Source of the DNA: a virus
Length of the DNA: 34,585 nt
Virus record (IMG/VR): IMGVR_UViG_3300043470_000880
Span: 1-34,585 of that record
Reading direction: 5' to 3' (one strand)
How positions within the stretch are numbered: position 1 is the stretch's first letter; each line of letters begins with the position of its first letter. A program made the translations under genes and the position numbers. Below are positions 4,792-34,363 of this stretch, in pieces. A model generated the notes under the pieces. The model had not been told where the DNA came from and searched no databases. It was given only the letters and a program-made list of their open reading frames with translations.

Positions 4792-5520
4792 ATGGCATAC
4801 GTATATACTTATACAAGACTTGATAAGAATGAAATCTTCTATGTAGGAATAGGTTCTGATACTAAATACAAAAGAGCAAAAAATCTATCACTAAGAACTG
4901 ATTACTTTAAAAAAATTATAAACAAAACTGAACACAAATTAGATATAGTTTTTGATAATCTATCTTGGGAAGAAGCTTGTTTAAAAGAAATAGAGCTTAT
5001 TGCTCTATATGGAAGAAAAGACTTAGGAAAAGGTACTCTTGTAAATTTTACTGATGGAGGAGAAGGAAGAAAAGGTTCTCAAAACAGAATAACTCCAACG
5101 TATCAAATAGATTTAAAAGGAAATATTGTCAAAGAGTGGATTAACATAGAAACTATTTGTAAAGAACTTAAAATTCATAGACAAGCTTTATATGCTGCTC
5201 TTAACGGTAAAGTATTAACTTGTAATAATTTTATATGGTTATATAAAGAAAAATATTCTTCAGATAAAGTTGATAACATATTAATAAAGTTAGAAAAAGA
5301 AAAAGTTAGAAGAAAAAATAATCCTACACCAGGTAAAAAACCAATTGCAGTATTACAGTATGATTTAAACAATAATTTTATAGCAGAATATAATTCTGTT
5401 ACAGAAGCATCAAAGAAAACATTAACAAGATGTTCTTGTATAACACAATGTGTTAATCCAAAATACAATAGAACAACAGCAAATAATTTTATATGGAAAA
5501 GAAAAGAAATTTATGGGTAA
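4792..5520 (+). CDS. GIY-YIG homing endonuclease with two NUMOD1-type DNA-binding repeats
   Basis: The 242-residue protein begins with a GIY-YIG nuclease domain: YTYTR (6-9) and FYVGIG (16-21), basic residues near 28-35, the helix KEIELIALYG with the likely catalytic Glu at 66 or 68, and LVNFTDGGEG (83-92). Two C-terminal repeats follow (about 103-153 and 183-238). Each starts with a Y-D/Q-L-x-G/N-x-I/F strand and ends in NNFIW, as in NUMOD1/IENR DNA-binding modules. It is a free-standing homing endonuclease. The upstream space is too short for a group I intron core. Its last codons overlap the start used by the downstream gene, and its insertion splits that gene's original beginning. Confidence 0.88.
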   Translation: MAYVYTYTRLDKNEIFYVGIGSDTKYKRAKNLSLRTDYFKKIINKTEHKLDIVFDNLSWEEACLKEIELIALYGRKDLGKGTLVNFTDGGEGRKGSQNRITPTYQIDLKGNIVKEWINIETICKELKIHRQALYAALNGKVLTCNNFIWLYKEKYSSDKVDNILIKLEKEKVRRKNNPTPGKKPIAVLQYDLNNNFIAEYNSVTEASKKTLTRCSCITQCVNPKYNRTTANNFIWKRKEIYG

Positions 5521-6233
5521 TTCCAACAGACAAGCCAAGTAAATTATATTTAAGTTTTAATAATATATTAGATTTAGATAATCACGAAAGTCAAAATACT
5601 TTGATTCATAAAAACCAAAACATCTACATTACTTCTGATGAAGAAATTAAAGATGGGGATTATTTTTTTAATAAAAGCACAAATTACATAAGAAAATATA
5701 CAAATTGCAATCTTGATAAATCAGACAAAAAAATCATTCTTACAACAGACCAAGACCTTATCAAAGATGGTGTTCAAGCTATTGATGATGAGTTCTTACA
5801 ATGGTTTGTTAAAAATCCTACTTGTGAGGAGGTTGAAGTTGAAAAGTTTAGAAGTTTTAAAGAAATATATAGTCCTTATGAATATATGATAATCATTCCA
5901 AAAGAAGAATCTAAACAAAAATTACCAATAGTAAATGGTAGTTATGGTTGCACTATTGAAACTGAAAAACAGGAAACACTTGAAGAAGTTAATACATCAT
6001 CTTTAGAAAATTTATTAGAAAATAATTATGATTTTAATGTACAATTTCATCAATTAAAAAGAGAATCTATATTTTCTTTTGCAGTGGTAATTTATGGAGA
6101 ATCTTTATCATTTAAAGAATGGCAAGAAAAACATTACGGTAAGTACATTGAAATATCTAAATGGCAACAAGAACAAAACAAGAATAAGTATAGTGAGGAA
6201 GATATGAAAGAAGCATTTGAAAATGGAGTATGA
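5493..6233 (+). CDS. Hypothetical early protein, start rebuilt inside the homing endonuclease gene and truncated by an in-frame TGA
   Basis: This 246-residue protein begins inside the last codons of the endonuclease gene. The ancestral family start is probably the remnant at 4718. The N-terminal part has VIPTDKPSKLYL, a phrase common to small phage proteins whose role is unknown. The C-terminal part has the KYSEEDM tail and stops at TGA (6231-6233). The same frame stays open after that TGA for 26 codons, ending DFNYFIKKLKNK and TAA at 6312-6314, three bases before the next start. Either the TGA is a recent nonsense mutation or it is read through. Function unknown. Confidence 0.6.
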   Translation: MEKKRNLWVIPTDKPSKLYLSFNNILDLDNHESQNTLIHKNQNIYITSDEEIKDGDYFFNKSTNYIRKYTNCNLDKSDKKIILTTDQDLIKDGVQAIDDEFLQWFVKNPTCEEVEVEKFRSFKEIYSPYEYMIIIPKEESKQKLPIVNGSYGCTIETEKQETLEEVNTSSLENLLENNYDFNVQFHQLKRESIFSFAVVIYGESLSFKEWQEKHYGKYIEISKWQQEQNKNKYSEEDMKEAFENGV

Positions 6234-27404: not shown

Positions 27405-28014
27405 TTTAGTAGATATATTCCAATGGTTTGGGTGGATATTATTATTAGGAGTGCTATTTTTTCGTGGTTGCAATCCAGAGCCAAAAATTGCAGAAAAGAT
27501 AAAAATACAAACCAAAGAAATCAAAGGAAAAGCAATAATCAAAACCAATGTTGTACACGTGCCAATAACAAAAAAAGTAAGTGATACAGCTGGAGTAGGT
27601 TTTTACGTTTCTCAAATAGATAAATTATTTGAAGAAAATAATCGTATGCAAATGGAATTTTTAAAAATGGATAGTTTGCAACAAATAGAAGCGTATAACA
27701 AAGCAATAGAAATAAACGCTTTTAAAGAACGATTTCAAGATAACAATATTGATGCTTATGTAAGCGGAGAAGTTGTGGGAAAAATAAAACAAATGCGTTT
27801 TGATTATGTTATTAAAGCACAAAATATAGAAGTAGATTTGCCAAAAGTAAAAAATAAATACTTTGTAGTTTTTGGAGTAAGCAATAATAGTCAATTTAAC
27901 GCACCATTATTTAATGCTTCAATTGGTATTCAAAATAAAAAATCCAATATTTTAAGTATTGGATTTGATAATGAAAAGCGTATAGGTTTGAATTACTTTG
28001 TTAAATTATTTTAA
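27388..28014 (+). CDS. Single-pass membrane protein, possible spanin-like or envelope protein
   Basis: Starting at ATG 27388 (MEKKINLVDIF), the 208-residue protein has one membrane segment at about 11-27 (FGWILLLGVLFF) followed by RGC. A basic linker and a helical region (about 70-120) follow. The C-terminus is beta-rich and ends GLNYFVKLF, as outer-membrane-directed beta proteins often do. Position behind the lysis genes and topology would suit an envelope-disrupting protein, but the family is not recognised. Its TAA shares bases with the stop of the convergent gene at 28011. Confidence 0.6.
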   Translation: MEKKINLVDIFQWFGWILLLGVLFFRGCNPEPKIAEKIKIQTKEIKGKAIIKTNVVHVPITKKVSDTAGVGFYVSQIDKLFEENNRMQMEFLKMDSLQQIEAYNKAIEINAFKERFQDNNIDAYVSGEVVGKIKQMRFDYVIKAQNIEVDLPKVKNKYFVVFGVSNNSQFNAPLFNASIGIQNKKSNILSIGFDNEKRIGLNYFVKLF

Positions 28015-28202
28015 AAAGGACAGATATTTTTTTCTTTTGGCTTAATAATTTCTATTTTTTCTCTTTGTAGCTTTTCGGATATAGCTTGTCTAATAAATTC
28101 AGCTACATTTATATTAAAACTTGCTAATTTATTAAGCGTATTATCTTGAACTTCTGAAAATTTAATAGTTCGAGGTTTATTATATTTTATAGGGCGTGGC
28201 AT
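28011..28202 (-). CDS. Ribbon-helix-helix-like DNA-binding protein
   Basis: The 63-residue basic protein has the layout of a MetJ/Arc-type regulator: a strand KPRTIKFSEVQ (9-19), helix NTLNKLASFN and helix VAEFIRQAISEKLQRE (33-48), with a basic Pro-rich start. Such proteins are repressors or antitoxins. It converges on the rightward late genes, sharing stop bases, and lies just left of the cassette array. Being tightly fitted to the phage gene, it is likely phage rather than cassette DNA. Confidence 0.6.
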   Translation of the reverse strand: MPRPIKYNKPRTIKFSEVQDNTLNKLASFNINVAEFIRQAISEKLQREKIEIIKPKEKNICPF

Positions 28203-28225
28203 AGATAAGTATTACTTTTATAGCG

Positions 28226-28238
28226 TTTAGCCAATAGT
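28226..28238 (-). repeat. Truncated attC-like end at the left edge of the cassette array
   Basis: Read leftward, TGCACCTAAC followed by TATTGGC begins like the other attC-like sites and overlaps the stop codon of the last cassette gene. No matching GTTA arm follows before the next gene. The same 10 bases appear inverted at 28582-28591, at the other side of this cassette. Confidence 0.45.
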
Positions 28239-28558
28239 TAGGTGCAATGCTGCGACACCCACCAATTGACAGCTTTAATAACGGCTTCAAGTTTTGTTTT
28301 TCCGACAAATTCTTCATCACCAAGTTGAACACAATTATCAAAAATATCCAACTCGTTTTCATCACCACCAAAACTTTCAATCTTTATGACAACAGGCATT
28401 ATTTCATTCCAATTATCATAAAATGGTAATCCTTCGTAATCTTGCATTTCAGCATTATTGTAGTAATAATAATGATTGCCTGTGTGTTCATTAAAGCCTT
28501 TAATTGGGTTTAATCCCATAAATTTGGCTATTTTTAAAATTTCTTCTGTGTATTCCAT
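28228..28558 (-). CDS. Cassette gene 6, hypothetical acidic protein
   Basis: The 106-residue acidic protein has tyrosine-rich NHYYYYNNAEMQDYEG, a middle with FYDNWNEIMPVV, and an end KTKLEAVIKAVNWWVSQHCT. The last phrase is common in small Bacteroidota proteins found on mobile DNA. It is the last (left-most) unit in the leftward cassette array. Its stop codon is in the truncated attC-like end. Function unknown. Confidence 0.65.
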
Positions 28559-28587
28559 ATTTCAAAATTTGTGAAAAGCACTGCACC

Positions 28588-28712
28588 TAACAAGGTATTG
28601 CCAAAAGCAGGGCATTCTCGGTTAATTAATCGTTTGTACTTCTATTGGGCATTTGTGCAAGGTTGAAACTTTTGTCTTTCAAATCCCTGCCTTCGGCAAT
28701 ACCCAACCGTTA
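28588..28712 (-). repeat. attC-like site behind cassette gene 5
   Basis: Plus strand: TAAC (28588-28591) to GTTA (28709-28712), 125 bases. The outer arm TATTGCC (28596-28602) pairs with GGCAATA (28695-28701). An inner arm GCAGGG (28607-28612) pairs with CCCTGC (28685-28690). The unpaired AA against CCAACC next to the ends gives the asymmetric bases expected in attC. The stop of the gene at 28710 lies inside GTTA. Confidence 0.7.
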
Positions 28713-28713
28713 T
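28666..28713. repeat. 48-base direct repeat, copy 1
   Basis: A stretch identical to 29164-29211, starting AAACTTTTGTC and ending CCAACCGTTAT. It forms the end-proximal half of the attC-like site behind gene 5. Confidence 0.85.
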
Positions 28714-29069
28714 AAAACATTTTTTGAAACCATGTCGTAAAGTTGAAGTTTATATTTTTCTATTTCAGAAACTTTTAAATTTTCTATTTCTAATCCATTT
28801 TTTTCTGTGTATTCAAAATCTTCTAAAAATAAATCAATTGTTTCTTTTTTAAAATCTTTTACTTCTCCAATCCAAAATTGAATATCTGCGTGTTTAGGTT
28901 TATTATTATTTCGTGCGTATAATTCTAAATGAAATCCTAATAACCATTTGTTTTTTATTTTTACATAACCAATATCAAATGATGACTTTCTTGTTATTTT
29001 AGACACAAATTTCTCTGCTATTTGAAAAATATTATGTATTTCATTTATTTGTTTTTCATTTAATTTCAT
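28710..29069 (-). CDS. Cassette gene 5, hypothetical protein
   Basis: The 119-residue protein starts MKLNEKQINEIHNIFQIAEK, has a central strand pair (DIGYVKIKNKWLLGFHLELY) and acidic helices at the end. No family is recognised. It lies alone between two attC-like sites, its stop within GTTA and its start 16 bases from the neighbouring site, the compact layout of a gene cassette. Confidence 0.65.
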   Translation of the reverse strand: MKLNEKQINEIHNIFQIAEKFVSKITRKSSFDIGYVKIKNKWLLGFHLELYARNNNKPKHADIQFWIGEVKDFKKETIDLFLEDFEYTEKNGLEIENLKVSEIEKYKLQLYDMVSKNVL

Positions 29070-29084
29070 TGATAAAACGTTTTA

Positions 29085-29210
29085 TAACATCGGTTTTGCT
29101 CTATTGCGGTTTAGTGCTTAACTCTATGTTCGGTTTGTATTTGTTAATTTTGTTTTTAAATCTAAACTTTTGTCTTTCAAATCCCTGCCTTCGGCAATAC
29201 CCAACCGTTA
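29085..29210 (-). repeat. attC-like site behind cassette gene 4
   Basis: Plus strand: TAAC (29085-29088) to GTTA (29207-29210). The arm CGGTTTTGC near 29091-29099 pairs with GCAATACC (29194-29201) with one mismatch. The right half is the 48-base repeat shared with the site behind gene 5, while the left half differs. The stop codon of the 68-residue gene overlaps GTTA. Confidence 0.6.
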
Positions 29211-29211
29211 T
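29164..29211. repeat. 48-base direct repeat, copy 2
   Basis: Identical to 28666-28713. The two copies lie 498 bases apart and flank exactly one cassette unit. Confidence 0.85.
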
Positions 29212-29414
29212 GCTCCATTTTGCTTTCCCTCCCACCACTTCGTAAGAAAGTGAGTAAGTGAATGAACGCATTGTTTTACATAAACCCTTTTCCATTTAGT
29301 AATTCCGCTATCTAAATCAACACGCCTTAATAGTTCAAAGGTTTTAATTCCTGCTCGGAAATCTTCTACAAACATTACGTGTTCCCATTTTGTCCAGTTT
29401 CTTTTTTTAAACAT
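29208..29414 (-). CDS. Cassette gene 4, small basic hypothetical protein
   Basis: The 68-residue basic protein is rich in Trp and Lys (MFKKRNWTKWEHVMF, LTHFLTKWWEG). No family is recognised. It is a single-gene cassette with its stop inside the GTTA of the attC-like site. Confidence 0.55.
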   Translation of the reverse strand: MFKKRNWTKWEHVMFVEDFRAGIKTFELLRRVDLDSGITKWKRVYVKQCVHSLTHFLTKWWEGKQNGA

Positions 29415-29471
29415 TGTTTCTATTTTTTAAGTTAATAATTTCGTTAATCCTGCCCACGCAAAACGAGAGCA

Positions 29472-29538
29472 TAACAGCACATACACGCTATTTCCCTCCC
29501 TCATTCCAACGCTCACAGCGTGTATCTGCAAAACGTTA
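29472..29538 (-). repeat. attC-like site behind the methyltransferase cassette
   Basis: Plus strand: TAAC (29472-29475) to GTTA (29535-29538), 67 bases, a typical attC length. The arm ATACACGCT (29481-29489) pairs perfectly with AGCGTGTAT (29517-29525). Extra unpaired bases lie between arm and end on one side. It sits 10 bases after the methyltransferase stop. Confidence 0.75.
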
Positions 29539-29548
29539 CCAGCAAGCA

Positions 29549-30511
29549 CTACGGACGTTCTTCGATTAAGCATTTCGGTTCAGTTTTAAATAATTTTTTT
29601 TCCTCCCCTTTTAAAAAAGAAAAGATATGTTCAACTATTCCAACAGTCCATCCATCCCCAATCAAATTGCCCGCTTGTGCCTTGTTTAAATTTCTTGTAT
29701 ATCCTTCGGGTATATTATGCAGCCTTTCAAGTTCCGTTTGTGTGCAATATCTTACTCCTTTACTTTCATCCATTGTTTCATCCGTATAAATAATGGTAGT
29801 CATTCCAGTAGTAGCGTATCTATGCAACATATACCTTTGGTTTGCGTCTCGGCCACAACTTGTATTTAAACAAGTGTGTTTCTTTTTATCAGAATATCCG
29901 TATTCCAAAACATCATTTAACATTATCTTTTTATCTCTCGGTTGTGGTATTGCACACTTTCTGTTTCCAAATAAATCAAAAGTTTCAGGCCCGATATTAG
30001 TCCAAAATAATCTATCTCTCAATGCACCACTTACTCTACTTCCGCAAAGTCTTACAGGTTCAGTTCCTAATAATTCAGATATTGTATTATAACCTAAATC
30101 ATCCATTATCACATTTTCAAGCAAATAGTAATCGGGTTTAGTTTCTTCCAGTAATCTTATGTATTCATAAAATAACATTGATTTCATTCCTTTCAATCCA
30201 TCCCTTACACTATTTGCCCTGCTAAAATCTTGACACGGGCTACCTCCAATCAATAAATGAATTTTTGGTAAATCTTGGCCTTTCACTTTTGTAACATCTC
30301 CAATCTGAATAGTATCAGGGAAATTATCCATTGTGCATTGTATGGCGTGTTTCTTTATTTCGGCTGCATAATATCGTGTAGGTTTCAATCCTACATTATT
30401 AAGGGCAATTTGTCCGCAGCTCATACCATCGAATAATGATAATACGTTAAATTCTTCGGCAAAGCCGTTTTTGCCATCCCTCAAAAAATTATTTAAAACT
30501 GTTTCGTTCAT
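29549..30511 (-). CDS. C5-cytosine DNA methyltransferase (cassette gene 3)
   Basis: The 320-residue protein transfers a methyl group from S-adenosylmethionine to cytosine C5 in DNA. Motif I is VLSLFDGMSCGQ (about 23-34), motif IV GGSPCQDFS has the catalytic Cys93, motif VI is LLENV (131-135), motif VIII includes RDRLFWTN, and motifs IX-X are RYCTQTELERLHNIPEGYT and GNLIGDGWTV. The form resembles DNMT3-type and phage orphan methyltransferases rather than long restriction-linked ones. No restriction enzyme gene is adjacent, so it is probably solitary and could protect DNA from host nucleases. It is a leftward cassette with an attC-like site at its 3' end. Confidence 0.92.
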   Translation of the reverse strand: MNETVLNNFLRDGKNGFAEEFNVLSLFDGMSCGQIALNNVGLKPTRYYAAEIKKHAIQCTMDNFPDTIQIGDVTKVKGQDLPKIHLLIGGSPCQDFSRANSVRDGLKGMKSMLFYEYIRLLEETKPDYYLLENVIMDDLGYNTISELLGTEPVRLCGSRVSGALRDRLFWTNIGPETFDLFGNRKCAIPQPRDKKIMLNDVLEYGYSDKKKHTCLNTSCGRDANQRYMLHRYATTGMTTIIYTDETMDESKGVRYCTQTELERLHNIPEGYTRNLNKAQAGNLIGDGWTVGIVEHIFSFLKGEEKKLFKTEPKCLIEERP

Positions 30512-30549
30512 CTAATTAGCTTTTGTTGTTAATAATCCGTGCCAGCTGG

Positions 30550-30607
30550 TAACAACGTGTATAAGCAAGCGGCAGAAAAAGCCGCCAGCCCATACACGCA
30601 ACCGTTA
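30550..30607 (-). repeat. attC-like site behind cassette gene 2
   Basis: Plus strand: TAAC (30550-30553) to GTTA (30604-30607), 58 bases. The arm CGTGTAT (30556-30562) pairs with ATACACG (30592-30598), and the inner GCGGC (30569-30573) pairs with GCCGC (30581-30585). It shares CGTTACCAGCAAGCACTA with the site behind the methyltransferase gene. Confidence 0.75.
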
Positions 30608-30617
30608 CCAGCAAGCA

Positions 30618-30878
30618 CTAATCCTCGTCTTTCAAATCAACACTTCGACAAGGAAAACCCCTTGTCCATCTACTTGCTTTCATTCCTTCCCTTTTCACAA
30701 GTAATTCAACAGTCGGGTGTATTGCCTTCATTGTTTTCATATTCATTACTTGTGCGCTTCCCCATCGCCAATCAAGTACATCATACTCTTGCATTGGGGT
30801 TTCCTTTTGTCCAAACAATCCACCTCCAAGTGTTTGTTTTGTGCCTATTAGGTCTTTAAATTCTTTTGGTGCTTCCAT
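30618..30878 (-). CDS. Cassette gene 2, small hypothetical protein
   Basis: The 86-residue protein begins MEAPKEFKDLIGTKQTLGGG and ends SRWTRGFPCRSVDLKDED. The Gly-rich loop GGGLFGQ and a WRWGSA segment are its only marked features. It sits between the methyltransferase and synthetase-like genes as its own cassette, with a stop 10 bases from the attC-like site. A partnership with the methyltransferase is possible but unsupported. Confidence 0.6.
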   Translation of the reverse strand: MEAPKEFKDLIGTKQTLGGGLFGQKETPMQEYDVLDWRWGSAQVMNMKTMKAIHPTVELLVKREGMKASRWTRGFPCRSVDLKDED

Positions 30879-30930
30879 TTTTATTTATCTTTTAAAATTA
30901 AGTTTCTACTAAATTACCCGTGCCAGCTTA

Positions 30931-30979
30931 TAACAGCACATTGGCGGCATTAAAACGACCGCCAATCTGCAAACCGTTA
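30931..30979 (-). repeat. attC-like site behind the leucyl-tRNA synthetase-like gene
   Basis: Plus strand: TAAC (30931-30934) to GTTA (30976-30979), only 49 bases. The arm ATTGGCGG (30940-30947) pairs perfectly with CCGCCAAT (30959-30966). It is short for attC but has the same ends and the asymmetric spacers AGCAC and CTGCAAACC. The synthetase-like gene stops inside GTTA. Confidence 0.7.
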
Positions 30980-32305
30980 CAAGACAGTTTCAGAAACCTC
31001 TCGTAAATCAGAAAGTTTAGTTCTGACATTTGGCATATAAATCTCTAAAAGTGAAATCAATTCATTTTTGCAATCGTCTGACAAACTTTTGTTTTTGTTT
31101 TGGTTCAACAAAATCATAAATGAACTTACTACTTTATTAAATTTGAAACTTTCAGTATAGTCAAAAATTTGTTTCTTGAATGTAGCAAAATCAATAGTTT
31201 CATTTCCGCTTTTATTCAACCAATTTGCCATTTTTTTAATAAATCTTTGAACTCCAATTATATTTTTATCTGACCAACTTCCACCATCAAAATAATGACC
31301 GATAAACATCAAATAAAAACGAATTTCATCACTATCATAGTTATCTAAATTTATAATATTACCTTTTGATTTACTCATTTTTTCGCCATTATTCAAAATC
31401 ATTCCCTGATGAATTACTTTTTTAAATGGTTCTTCAAAATCAATTACTCCAATATCAAACAAAAACATTGTTATAAATCGTGCATAAATTAAGTGCATAC
31501 AAGCGTGTTCACTTCCGCCTACGTACAAATCAACTTGTTTTGGTTTTATTCCTTTGATTAAACAGTAAGTAATGAAATAAAAACTACTGTCTACAAACGT
31601 ATCTAAAGTATCAGTTTCATTGTCTAACGGAATTGGACAACCCCAATTTCTTTGACGAGAAACACACCAATCGTGCAAATTTTCCAACCATTCACGTTGT
31701 TGTTTTTTAGTGCTTTCAGGATAATCTATTTTATCTAAATTATCAATCAATCTTTGTTTGTACCAAGTTGTTTTAAAATACCATTGGTTTAAATTTTTCT
31801 TTGATATTTCAGTTTCACAACGCTCACATTTATTATTTTTAACTTGCTCACGAGCCAATGTAGTTTCACAACTATTGCAATAATCTACTTCGCTATCTTT
31901 TTTATAAGCTAAACCATTTTCTAATAATTTGGTAAATAGCCATTGTGTTTTTTCTTGATACTCTTTATCAGAAGTAATCAATAATTCCTCATAATTAGTA
32001 TTCATTGACTGCATTTGTTTTCTGAAATTATTTATATTTTCATAAGTAATTTCTTTTGCATCACGACCTACTTTTTTAGCGTAGTTTTCAGCAGGTAAAC
32101 CAAAAGCATCATAACCAAATGGTTGAAACACTTGGTTTCCGATAAACTTTTTGTATCTGCAATAACTATCCATAATTGCATAATTGTAGTAATGTCCGCA
32201 ATGCAAACCGCTTCCACTTGGATAAGGAAACATTACAGTTATGTACAAAAAACCGTCTTGTAACACGGGTTTGGCAAAATTGCCGTTTAGTGCTTCGTTT
32301 GACAT
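30977..32305 (-). CDS. Reduced leucyl-tRNA synthetase homologue without editing domain (cassette gene 1)
   Basis: The 442-residue protein is clearly homologous to bacterial LeuRS (normally about 800-900 residues). It keeps the catalytic core: FPYPSGSGLHCGH with the HxGH motif at 35-38, QPFGYDAFGLPAEN (61-74), a zinc knuckle with Cys143, 146, 160 and 163, SRQRNWGCPIP (216-226), DTFVDSSFYF (235-244), YVGGSEHACMHL and KMSKS at 309-313. At about 206-212 it jumps from QREWL to HDWCVSRQ, where LeuRS carries the CP1 editing domain, so that domain is entirely absent. The insertion before KMSKS is also shortened. The anticodon-binding bundle is cut short and the C-terminal domain is missing. It may activate leucine or a related acid, with or without tRNA, or act as a resistant decoy enzyme. 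Confidence 0.88.
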   Translation of the reverse strand: MSNEALNGNFAKPVLQDGFLYITVMFPYPSGSGLHCGHYYNYAIMDSYCRYKKFIGNQVFQPFGYDAFGLPAENYAKKVGRDAKEITYENINNFRKQMQSMNTNYEELLITSDKEYQEKTQWLFTKLLENGLAYKKDSEVDYCNSCETTLAREQVKNNKCERCETEISKKNLNQWYFKTTWYKQRLIDNLDKIDYPESTKKQQREWLENLHDWCVSRQRNWGCPIPLDNETDTLDTFVDSSFYFITYCLIKGIKPKQVDLYVGGSEHACMHLIYARFITMFLFDIGVIDFEEPFKKVIHQGMILNNGEKMSKSKGNIINLDNYDSDEIRFYLMFIGHYFDGGSWSDKNIIGVQRFIKKMANWLNKSGNETIDFATFKKQIFDYTESFKFNKVVSSFMILLNQNKNKSLSDDCKNELISLLEIYMPNVRTKLSDLREVSETVL

Positions 32306-32365
32306 TTTATCTTAATTTTAAAATTCGTAATTATATTGAAGTTTTGTGTTCAGCCACTTCGCCAA

Positions 32366-32390
32366 GCCCGAAAACGTTATATAATATAAC
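32366..32390. repeat. Half attC-like end and inverted repeat at the right edge of the array
   Basis: CCCGAAAACGTTA (32367-32379) resembles the GTTA ends of the other sites, but no TAAC partner lies between it and the synthetase-like gene. The same bases form a perfect inverted repeat, GTTATAT-A-ATATAAC (32376-32390). It may be a truncated site, a recombination junction or an operator near the leftward promoter. Confidence 0.45.
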
Positions 32391-32394
32391 AATG

Positions 32395-32402
32395 CAAATG
32401 TA
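32395..32402 (-). promoter_or_regulatory. Leftward -7 box in front of the cassette array
   Basis: On the minus strand these bases read TACATTTG, fitting TAnnTTTG, 90 bases upstream of the synthetase-like gene. No clear -33 box is visible. It is the only candidate for a common promoter of the array. Confidence 0.45.
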
Positions 32403-32473
32403 CAAATATTATTTTTAATAAAAAAATATTTAACTAAAATAATTTATTTTATTTTTATTTTATCAATATTTTC

Positions 32474-32520: not shown

Positions 32521-32588
32521 TAATTAGTAAAAAATTTTTTTATTAAAATTAAACGTTTTATATTTGTACCATAATAACAAACAAATAA
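32521..32588 (+). promoter_or_regulatory. Twin promoter block, copy 1, for the pentapeptide-repeat gene
   Basis: TATATTTG at 32559-32566 is embedded in a 68-base block that aligns without gaps to 34361-34428. Shared parts are TAATTAGTAAAAA, TTTTTTTATTAAAA and ATAATAACAAACAAATAA. It drives the gene at 32609. Confidence 0.7.
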
Positions 32589-32608: not shown

Positions 32609-33208
32609 ATGAAAACAAAAATTGAAATTAAAAGTATTTTTGGTAATGTATTATTTACCTATGAATCAGAAAATGCAACTATTAAAGATGCAGTAGAAAA
32701 AGCGGTAAAAGAAAAGGTTTCTTTACTTTCAGCCGACTTGCGTTCAGCCGACTTGGAATCAGCCAACTTGTATTCAGCCGACTTGCGTTCAGCCGACTTG
32801 GAATCAGCCAACTTGTATTCAGCCGACTTGCGTTCAGCCAACTTGCGTTCAGCCGACTTGCGTTCAGCCGACTTGCGTTCAGCCAACTTGTATTCAGCCG
32901 ACTTGCGTTCAGCCGACTTGCGTTCAGCCGACTTGCGTTCAGCCAACTTGGAATCAGCCAACTTGTATTCAGCCGACTTGCGTTCAGCCAAAAATAAAGA
33001 TAAAGCATATTTACCTATTTTTTGTAAATGGAATCACTCAATTATTGGCAATAAAATAAAAATAGGTTGCAAAGAAAAAACTATTGAGGAATGGGATGTT
33101 TTTTTTGAAAGCGATGAAATTTATAAAACTCAACGTAATACAGAAGATTTTAAACAAATACAAGCAGTATATGAAGCGTATAAGGCTTATTTAACTTTTT
33201 TTAAATAA
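32609..33208 (+). CDS. Pentapeptide-repeat protein
   Basis: The 199-residue protein has a small N-terminal domain (1-35), about 17 consecutive pentapeptides of the A-D/N-L-x-x class (about 41-127), and a C-terminal domain with [21 protein letters not shown]. The repeats predict a right-handed quadrilateral beta helix, whose surface can mimic DNA; some members protect or inhibit gyrase. The DNA repeats are almost identical 15-base units using only gac/aac and cgt/gaa/tat at the variable codons, so the array expanded recently. Its promoter is shared in sequence with the one at 34361. Confidence 0.85.
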
Positions 33209-33829: not shown

Positions 33830-34045
33830 ATGGCAAATGCAATAGAACAATTATTAAGACAAACAGATTTAACCGCATATAGGTTAAGTAAGTACACAGG
33901 AGTAAGCCCACAAGCATTACACTACCAAAAGAAAAAGGAATACAATTTAAAGGAAGCTGTAAACCTTGCTACAATTTTAAAAGAAAAAGGGTTAATTAAA
34001 AAAGATTTAATTTTAACAGAAAATGAAATAATAACTAAAATTTAA
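33830..34045 (+). CDS. Small helix-turn-helix DNA-binding protein
   Basis: Starting at ATG 33830, the 71-residue protein contains TAYRLSKYTGVSPQALHYQK (about residues 14-33), a helix-turn-helix of the Cro/CI (XRE) type, then NLKEAVNLATILKEKGLI. It is a candidate regulator of the phage early genes and possibly of the twin promoters on either side. An in-frame non-ATG start further upstream would overlap the preceding gene and is not chosen. Confidence 0.65.
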   Translation: MANAIEQLLRQTDLTAYRLSKYTGVSPQALHYQKKKEYNLKEAVNLATILKEKGLIKKDLILTENEIITKI

Positions 34046-34048
34046 ATT

Positions 34049-34363
34049 ATGAAAAACAGATTAACAAATTATTGGAATATTTTAACAGGGATTAAAAACC
34101 AAAACGAAAATTTACAAGATTTAAAAATTATATTATTCAGAGATAAAACCACCGCTGAAAGTATTAATTTATTTATGGAGTTAAAAAGGGATTTTGAAGA
34201 GGAATTATCTAAACGTAAATTAGAGGCAATAAACGAAAATATTAACATTAATGATTATTTTAGCAGTAGAGATTCTTTGCTTTACACAACGATAAAAGAC
34301 GGCAATTCTTTGGTGTATGACAACGGTAAAAGATGCAGTTTTTCAAGAACCAATACAAAATAA
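34049..34363 (+). CDS. Hypothetical early protein
   Basis: The 104-residue helical, charged protein starts MKNRLTNYWNILTGIKNQNE and ends CSFSRTNTK. It begins 3 bases after the HTH gene stop, so the two are likely co-transcribed. No motif is recognised. The twin promoter block, copy 2, begins at its last codon. Confidence 0.55.
   Translation: MKNRLTNYWNILTGIKNQNENLQDLKIILFRDKTTAESINLFMELKRDFEEELSKRKLEAINENININDYFSSRDSLLYTTIKDGNSLVYDNGKRCSFSRTNTK

Follow-up and report, generated by a model that had tools for sequence, protein, structure and literature searches.

A Phage-Borne Cassette Array with Mirrored Polarity and Its Probable Place in an Integron-Like System of Bacteroidia

The IMG/VR virus record IMGVR_UViG_3300043470_000880, analyzed here over its whole length of 34,585 nucleotides (hereafter, the window), carries a block of leftward genes interspersed with palindromic, attC-like sites. 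The evidence gathered below makes it very probable that the phage here carries an array belonging to an integron-like, mirror-polarity system of Bacteroidia. We also consider it likely that most Bacteroidia possess a separate mirror-image integron, endowed with an integrase clade, a site family, and an attI of its own; that this integron has escaped notice in searches based on IntI; and that phages have taken it over to store and exchange methyltransferases and further cargo.

attC-Like Sites in the Window

The window was searched with a covariance model (R1; 23 consensus base pairs) trained on 35 sites from elsewhere, which had been gathered in other loci with a purpose-written palindrome scanner and then aligned; the window sequence was excluded, which avoids circularity. 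R1 detected six sites, all on the minus strand, with E-values ranging from 4.8e-20 to 1.7e-5, and the next best match in the rest of the window reached only 0.26; the E-values are rough because the calibration was short, but the gap between sites and background is wide. From left to right, these are C1 (28581-28719; E 4.8e-20), C2 (29078-29217; 5.4e-10), C3 (29465-29545; 1.7e-5), C4 (30543-30614; 5.2e-6), C5 (30924-30986; 1.8e-7), and C6 (32254-32386; 3e-17), and all six exhibit outer AAC/GTT boxes, inner complementary arms, and a variable loop. A preliminary description of this DNA had listed five TAAC...GTTA palindromes, all of which are present and matched by R1 on the minus strand; it had missed C6, which lies upstream of a gene resembling leucyl-tRNA synthetase (LeuRS) and overlaps its start.

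The palindrome scanner recovered five of the six sites at a score of at least 33 and returned nothing from the initial 28 kb of phage sequence; elsewhere in the window it produced a single weak match (score 33.1; 34015-34182), and dinucleotide-shuffled versions of the array yielded 0.05 matches per 4.2 kb. No Rfam family was found for the window sites. Read in the sense of the genes, the consensus is TTGCnnnTAAC, the site, and GTTAnnnGCAG, so ordered in the folded site that R'' (TTGCnnnTAAC) is followed by L'', the loop, L', and R' (GTTAnnnGCAG). In 177 of 192 sites, the strand with the sense of the genes forms the more stable fold; this stability was dropped as evidence of polarity because the same measure failed on known attC sites, where it held for none of three class-1 and all of four Vibrio attCs.

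The core of C1 is 95% identical to cores in two other loci (L140 and L044). C2, whose hairpin is much poorer than those of the other sites, has one C1-like arm and one unlike C1, and judging from these arms it is probably a hybrid of two sites. C6 resembles DNA of the Muminvirus phages (79% over 119 bases). At its right end in gene sense, the palindrome GTTATATTATATAAC (32380-32392) looks like an R' box abutting an R'' box; a cassette that had no gene, or one that was cut out, may have left this scar.

Polarity of the Cassettes

In classical integrons, attC lies behind the gene, at its 3' end, and the genes run away from attI. The arrays analyzed here are organized the other way round: the unit is a site with the gene downstream of it, and the genes, including those of the window, read toward attI. 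This was observed first in a shared-flank test on homologous site pairs with exactly one flank in common (threshold 28; six independent cassettes), in which 12 pairs had a common downstream gene and none had a common upstream gene. Start codons located within the site and reading out downstream were found in 41 of 178 sites, as against eight in the antisense control; within the window, the LeuRS-like gene exemplifies this arrangement.

Breakpoints in cultured Flavobacterium phages (Muminvirus: filifjonk, tooticki, and mumin), in which as many as 15 sites belong to this family, point the same way. The near-isogenic mumin6-2 and mumin6-3, 99.9% identical, differ by one unit of site plus downstream gene, with the break at TAAC. 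In filifjonk, there is one cassette more than in mumin, placed exactly at the junction of AAC and TACAATATTACATG, which is the attI at the array end, and its gene points to that end; tooticki has a third kind of last cassette at the same junction. On these comparisons, the gene-to-site relation is inverted relative to classical integrons.

The ends of the cassettes provide a further feature. A gene segment has three variable nucleotides at either end, one set after GTTA and one ahead of the following TAAC, and these labels agree in 60% of 52 segments, compared with 8% for the two ends of one site and 7% for random pairs. Such matches would be left if circles were excised and reinserted via a single crossover point. 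Five of the six window segments match at six or more of the seven compared positions.

These observations also bear on the proposal that homologous recombination alone between phages, with the hairpins as landing homology, moves these genes, no site-specific recombinase acting on phage arrays. Phages recombine freely, the sites are repetitive, there is no integrase in the window nor in the Muminvirus stretches that were read, and such exchange could explain both the hybrid-looking C2 and one mismatched label in the window (see below). Nevertheless, it accounts poorly for breakpoints at TAAC, for a label rule holding over 52 segments, for neighboring sites often with scant similarity outside their cores, and for exact insertion at attI, and phage arrays with an integrase do exist. 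We therefore regard homologous recombination alone as an improbable explanation.

Linked Integrase and attI in Relatives

The distribution of the system was examined in 295 genomes sampled from the class (Bacteroidia) of a Bacteroidales metagenome-assembled genome (MAG). R1 sites were present in at least 202 of them, a lower bound because no more than 11 candidates per genome were scored. The IntI integrase that would accompany an ordinary array was found neither in the window record nor, above the TIGR02249 cut-off, in more than one of 198 Bacteroidia genomes, and within 20 kb of this sole true IntI the palindrome scanner recognized no sites. The recombinase linked to arrays is instead a different protein, below the IntI cut-off. 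Ten genomes rich in arrays often have, at the array end, a tyrosine recombinase with ~350-380 residues that matches PF00589 and PF13495; its best NCBIfam model is of the XerA type, with IntI second. This array-linked integrase is 28% identical to IntI1 and is devoid of 47 residues containing the IntI-specific insert, which has been described as essential for integron function (PMC8138268). In a phylogenetic tree, array-linked integrases and IntI group apart from 12 other Bacteroidia recombinases (support 98/96). The branching within the group is compatible with IntI lying either inside or beside the array-linked integrases, and either could be ancestral.

The linkage was tested at the level of genomes and of loci. 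Integrase family A2 occurs in 156 of the 295 genomes, and R1 sites were detected in 140 of these 156 as compared with 62 of the 139 others (odds ratio 10.9, p 3e-17). Among 20 integrase loci picked blind to sites, 14 carried R1 sites, and in five of the six negative ones the contig breaks off no more than ~1.5 kb away from the integrase; 20 control loci of other tyrosine recombinases in similar genomes had none over 380 kb. That the sites should be dispersed hairpins between unrelated inserted genes, such as terminators or elements resembling repetitive extragenic palindromes or miniature inverted-repeat transposable elements, is suggested only by the presence of imperfect palindromes between genes. 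It is contradicted already by the labels, which match between neighboring sites and not within one site, as well as by the tie to one recombinase family, the empty control loci, and the lack of an Rfam family, so that the probability of this explanation is close to nil.

In 13 of the 14 R1-positive blind loci, the coordinates place the genes reading toward the integrase. In the majority of convergent host loci, 93-110 bp separate the end of the last cassette, with its exactly matching label, from the stop codon of the integrase, and the cassette is succeeded by a conserved AAC followed by TnrTTTATA, the host attI. An attI beside an integrase is found in these host relatives and likewise in the phage contigs L026 and L266, where array, attI, and integrase occur together; in these two and in phage contig G005 the A2-type integrase has 265-289 residues, lacks the N-terminal extension, and lies behind attI. 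An integrase subclade from three genomes (loci L195, L201, and L242 of G087, G238, and G252) runs parallel to the cassette genes rather than against them and has a different attI, AAC followed by TCTnTA.TAT.CG.

It is in light of these results that the reading as a classical CALIN (cluster of attC sites lacking integron integrases) should be weighed, namely that the block consists of ordinary attC cassettes from an IntI-type integron, with genes reading toward a 3' attC. In its favor are the palindromic sites with an AAC/GTT core, the stop codons near the sites, the single-gene units, and the existence of phage CALINs with methyltransferases, one site of which, from Polaribacter phage P12002L, was recombined by IntI1 (PMC9892861). 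The window has six attC-like sites and no integrase, but these sites are of another family and are accompanied by an attI-like site. Against it, breakpoints and common flanks bind each site to its downstream gene, and the Muminvirus breakpoints largely refute it; R1 has no match in class-1 or Vibrio integron regions; IntI is found in one of 198 genomes while sites are found in 202 of 295; and arrays have their integrase at the 3' end. We consider a classical CALIN unlikely to a high degree. The integron-like array without integrase in a phage, as first proposed, thus holds, but its assignment to classical attC sites and CALINs does not, given a different site family, a different integrase, the opposite polarity, and the presence of an attI-like site, which is not required of a CALIN.

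The Block as an Insertion in a Phage Genome

The whole inserted block spans 28016-32444 (right edge approximate). As initially noted, the open reading frame (ORF) list of the window places the phage genes rightward and a leftward block at ~28-32.4 kb. In two related phages (L059 and L062), window position 28015 is joined directly to ~32445 with no block, and five further relatives (L060, L064, L065, L067, and L068) likewise lack it, bearing out the comparison with related phages that had been envisaged. The two flanks are thus parts of a single phage type, directly joined in relatives, which disfavors an assembly chimera of host array DNA and phage DNA. Such a chimera could be suspected of any metagenomic record; with contiguous flanks in relatives, an attI and small-gene junction recurring in four other phage contigs, and cultured phages that have such arrays, its probability is negligible, and the contiguity of array and phage DNA, on which the preliminary description depended, is supported. 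The system is also present in a further cultured phage, Winogradskyella phage Peternella_1, where an R1 site at 5651-5791 (E 2e-6) lies near a homologue of an 86-aa window gene.

Array Ends and Cassette Genes

The left end of the array behaves as an attI. At 28203-28240 (minus strand), the gene-sense sequence TAAC is followed by TATTGGCTAAACGCTATAAAAG; the last window cassette ends with TTGCACCTAAC, which matches its own label (0 mismatches), and TATTGGCTAAACGCTATAAAAG comes next. In five phage contigs (the window, L137, L139, L140, and L141) this attI-like stretch is common up to a small ribbon-helix-helix-like gene whereas the cassette side differs, from which we infer attI behavior. That gene (28011-28202, minus strand; 63 aa; phrog_25647) occupies the integrase position of related arrays, and its product gives a weak RelB-type match (0.0019). 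Directly behind the Muminvirus attI there is a small protein weakly of the same family. At the opposite end, the stretch 32395-32437 (minus strand) is an 81% inverted copy of the phage promoter region at 32524-32566 (rightward, TATATTTG), and by its Bacteroidota motif it may be a promoter reading leftward into the array.

The cassettes comprise six minus-strand genes, as had been counted, although the 63-aa leftward gene was left out of that count. The first (30977-32305; 442 aa), with its start codon within C6, encodes the LeuRS-like protein, which matches Pfam tRNA-synt_1g and, with an E-value of 3e-105, TIGR00396, although its score of 353 bits stays below the cut-off of 548. It contains HIGH-like (HCGH) and KMSKS motifs but is far shorter than LeuRS; it could be a miniature tRNA synthetase that works by itself, or else a decoy. 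At the DNA level, the gene is 71.6% identical over 27% of the query to the 634-kb uncultured phage LR745206. It is followed by an 86-aa gene with no assigned function (30618-30878), whose homologue in Peternella_1 is 74% identical in DNA, and by a cytosine-5 DNA methyltransferase gene (Dcm; 29549-30511; 320 aa; PF00145, 1.8e-28), with which C4 travels. ORFs of 68 aa (29208-29414), 119 aa (28710-29069), and 106 aa (28238-28558) complete the array, the last with its stop codon within the final TAAC. Family searches with the 86-, 68-, 119-, and 106-aa proteins returned no family.

Two features of the surrounding phage genome may be recorded here. Directly to the right of the block (32609-33208), a pentapeptide-repeat protein is encoded with 13 in-phase 15-bp DNA repeats, and by eye the ORF at 4792-5520 resembles a homing endonuclease of GIY-YIG type.

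DNA methyltransferases are frequent among the cassette products. The Dcm cassette was found in 32 viral contigs and in one of the 295 genomes, and in phage contig L026 a Dcm 99% identical to the window protein is encoded by the last cassette before the integrase. The only contig filed under a host that has several phage cassettes (JAQVOJ010000113, from a Bacteroidales MAG) may be a phage contig binned with it. Hence, of the idea that phages are vehicles for cassettes between hosts, movement from phage to phage is well supported, while traffic from phage to host was not seen in this distribution. Muminvirus isolates from Flavobacterium LMO9 without one methyltransferase plate less well on strain LMO6 of this genus, for which the authors suggested restriction as the cause (PMC7077304).

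Comparison with Known Systems

The system shares with IntI integrons (class 1, Vibrio chromosomal) a cassette made of a palindromic site and usually one gene, the AAC/GTT core, cassette-specific labels at the site ends, and insertion at an attI beside an IntI-related tyrosine recombinase. It differs from them in that the genes read away from their own site and toward attI; in an array-linked integrase without the IntI insert, whose host forms usually have an extra N-terminal part of ~75 residues; and in sites with uneven spacers (5 and 1 nt) and often a start codon within. Among named models and structures, those of XerA-type recombinases (NF040815; PDB 5hxy and 4a8e) come closest to the array-linked integrase, and they also lack the IntI insert. 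XerA resolves chromosomes; the array-linked proteins, in contrast, adjoin arrays and group with IntI. In the reverse-orientation integrons of Spirochaetota, the integrase gene is flipped and the genes keep their normal relation to attC. These resemble the present system in the unusual orientation of integrase versus cassette genes, whereas here the gene-to-site relation itself is inverted. They are mentioned in PMC9668308.

Phage CALINs, including that of P12002L with methyltransferases, and the recombination of phage sites by IntI1 have been described (Qi et al. 2023, PMC9892861). They share with the window an array without integrase in a phage and DNA methyltransferase cargo; a separate site family or an inversion was not recognized there, and no attI was reported for arrays of virulent phages. 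Phage attC arrays without integrase are already known. Reviews list the integrons of Bacteroidota as IntI-type, and no description of the mirrored system was found in the open-licence literature, preprints being outside this scope. P12002L, which has a Flavobacteriia host, contains several uneven palindromes between 31121 and 40948 on the minus strand, whose boxes read ACAAC...GTTGT or TAAC...GTTA. They may represent a marine offshoot of this site family, and a link to the mirrored system is likely.

Weighing of the Proposed Mechanism

Some observations weigh against an array of the mirrored type in the window. The 86-aa segment (30618-30986) violates the label rule (GTTATAAGC vs GTTACCAGC), which suggests, at the level of sequence, a fused or rearranged cassette. 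Neither an integrase model search nor the ORF list revealed an integrase in the window record, which is linear and may be a fragment. In one of the 14 blind loci (L224), the sites read away from the integrase, at a distance of 7 kb. Finally, R1 gives no match on P12002L, though the scanner sees similar asymmetric sites there.

In the mechanism that we propose for the mirrored array, an IntI-related tyrosine recombinase would join site with site, or site with attI, within the TAAC/GTT core, presumably acting on sites folded as single strands. Circles of site plus gene would be excised and then inserted at attI, so that the genes come to point to attI and the integrase. The window phage would keep only array and attI; as its record has no integrase gene, recombination would have to come from elsewhere, and the enzyme would be supplied in trans by the host or a co-infecting phage. 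The cassette genes may be expressed from the phage-type promoter at the far end of the array, possibly also from within the sites, and the likely benefit of the methyltransferase cargo would be escape from host restriction.

Integrons have been treated as one architecture; here gene and site stand in the opposite relation, and this in a major class of bacteria that seldom has IntI. If this holds, a large system for capturing genes has gone unseen by integron surveys in bacteria of gut, soil, and water, and phages would own a modular route for swapping anti-restriction genes, whose effect on host range is testable with the existing Muminvirus isolates through their plating on LMO6 (PMC7077304). 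Phage arrays with only an attI also raise the question of whether a host integrase edits the phage.

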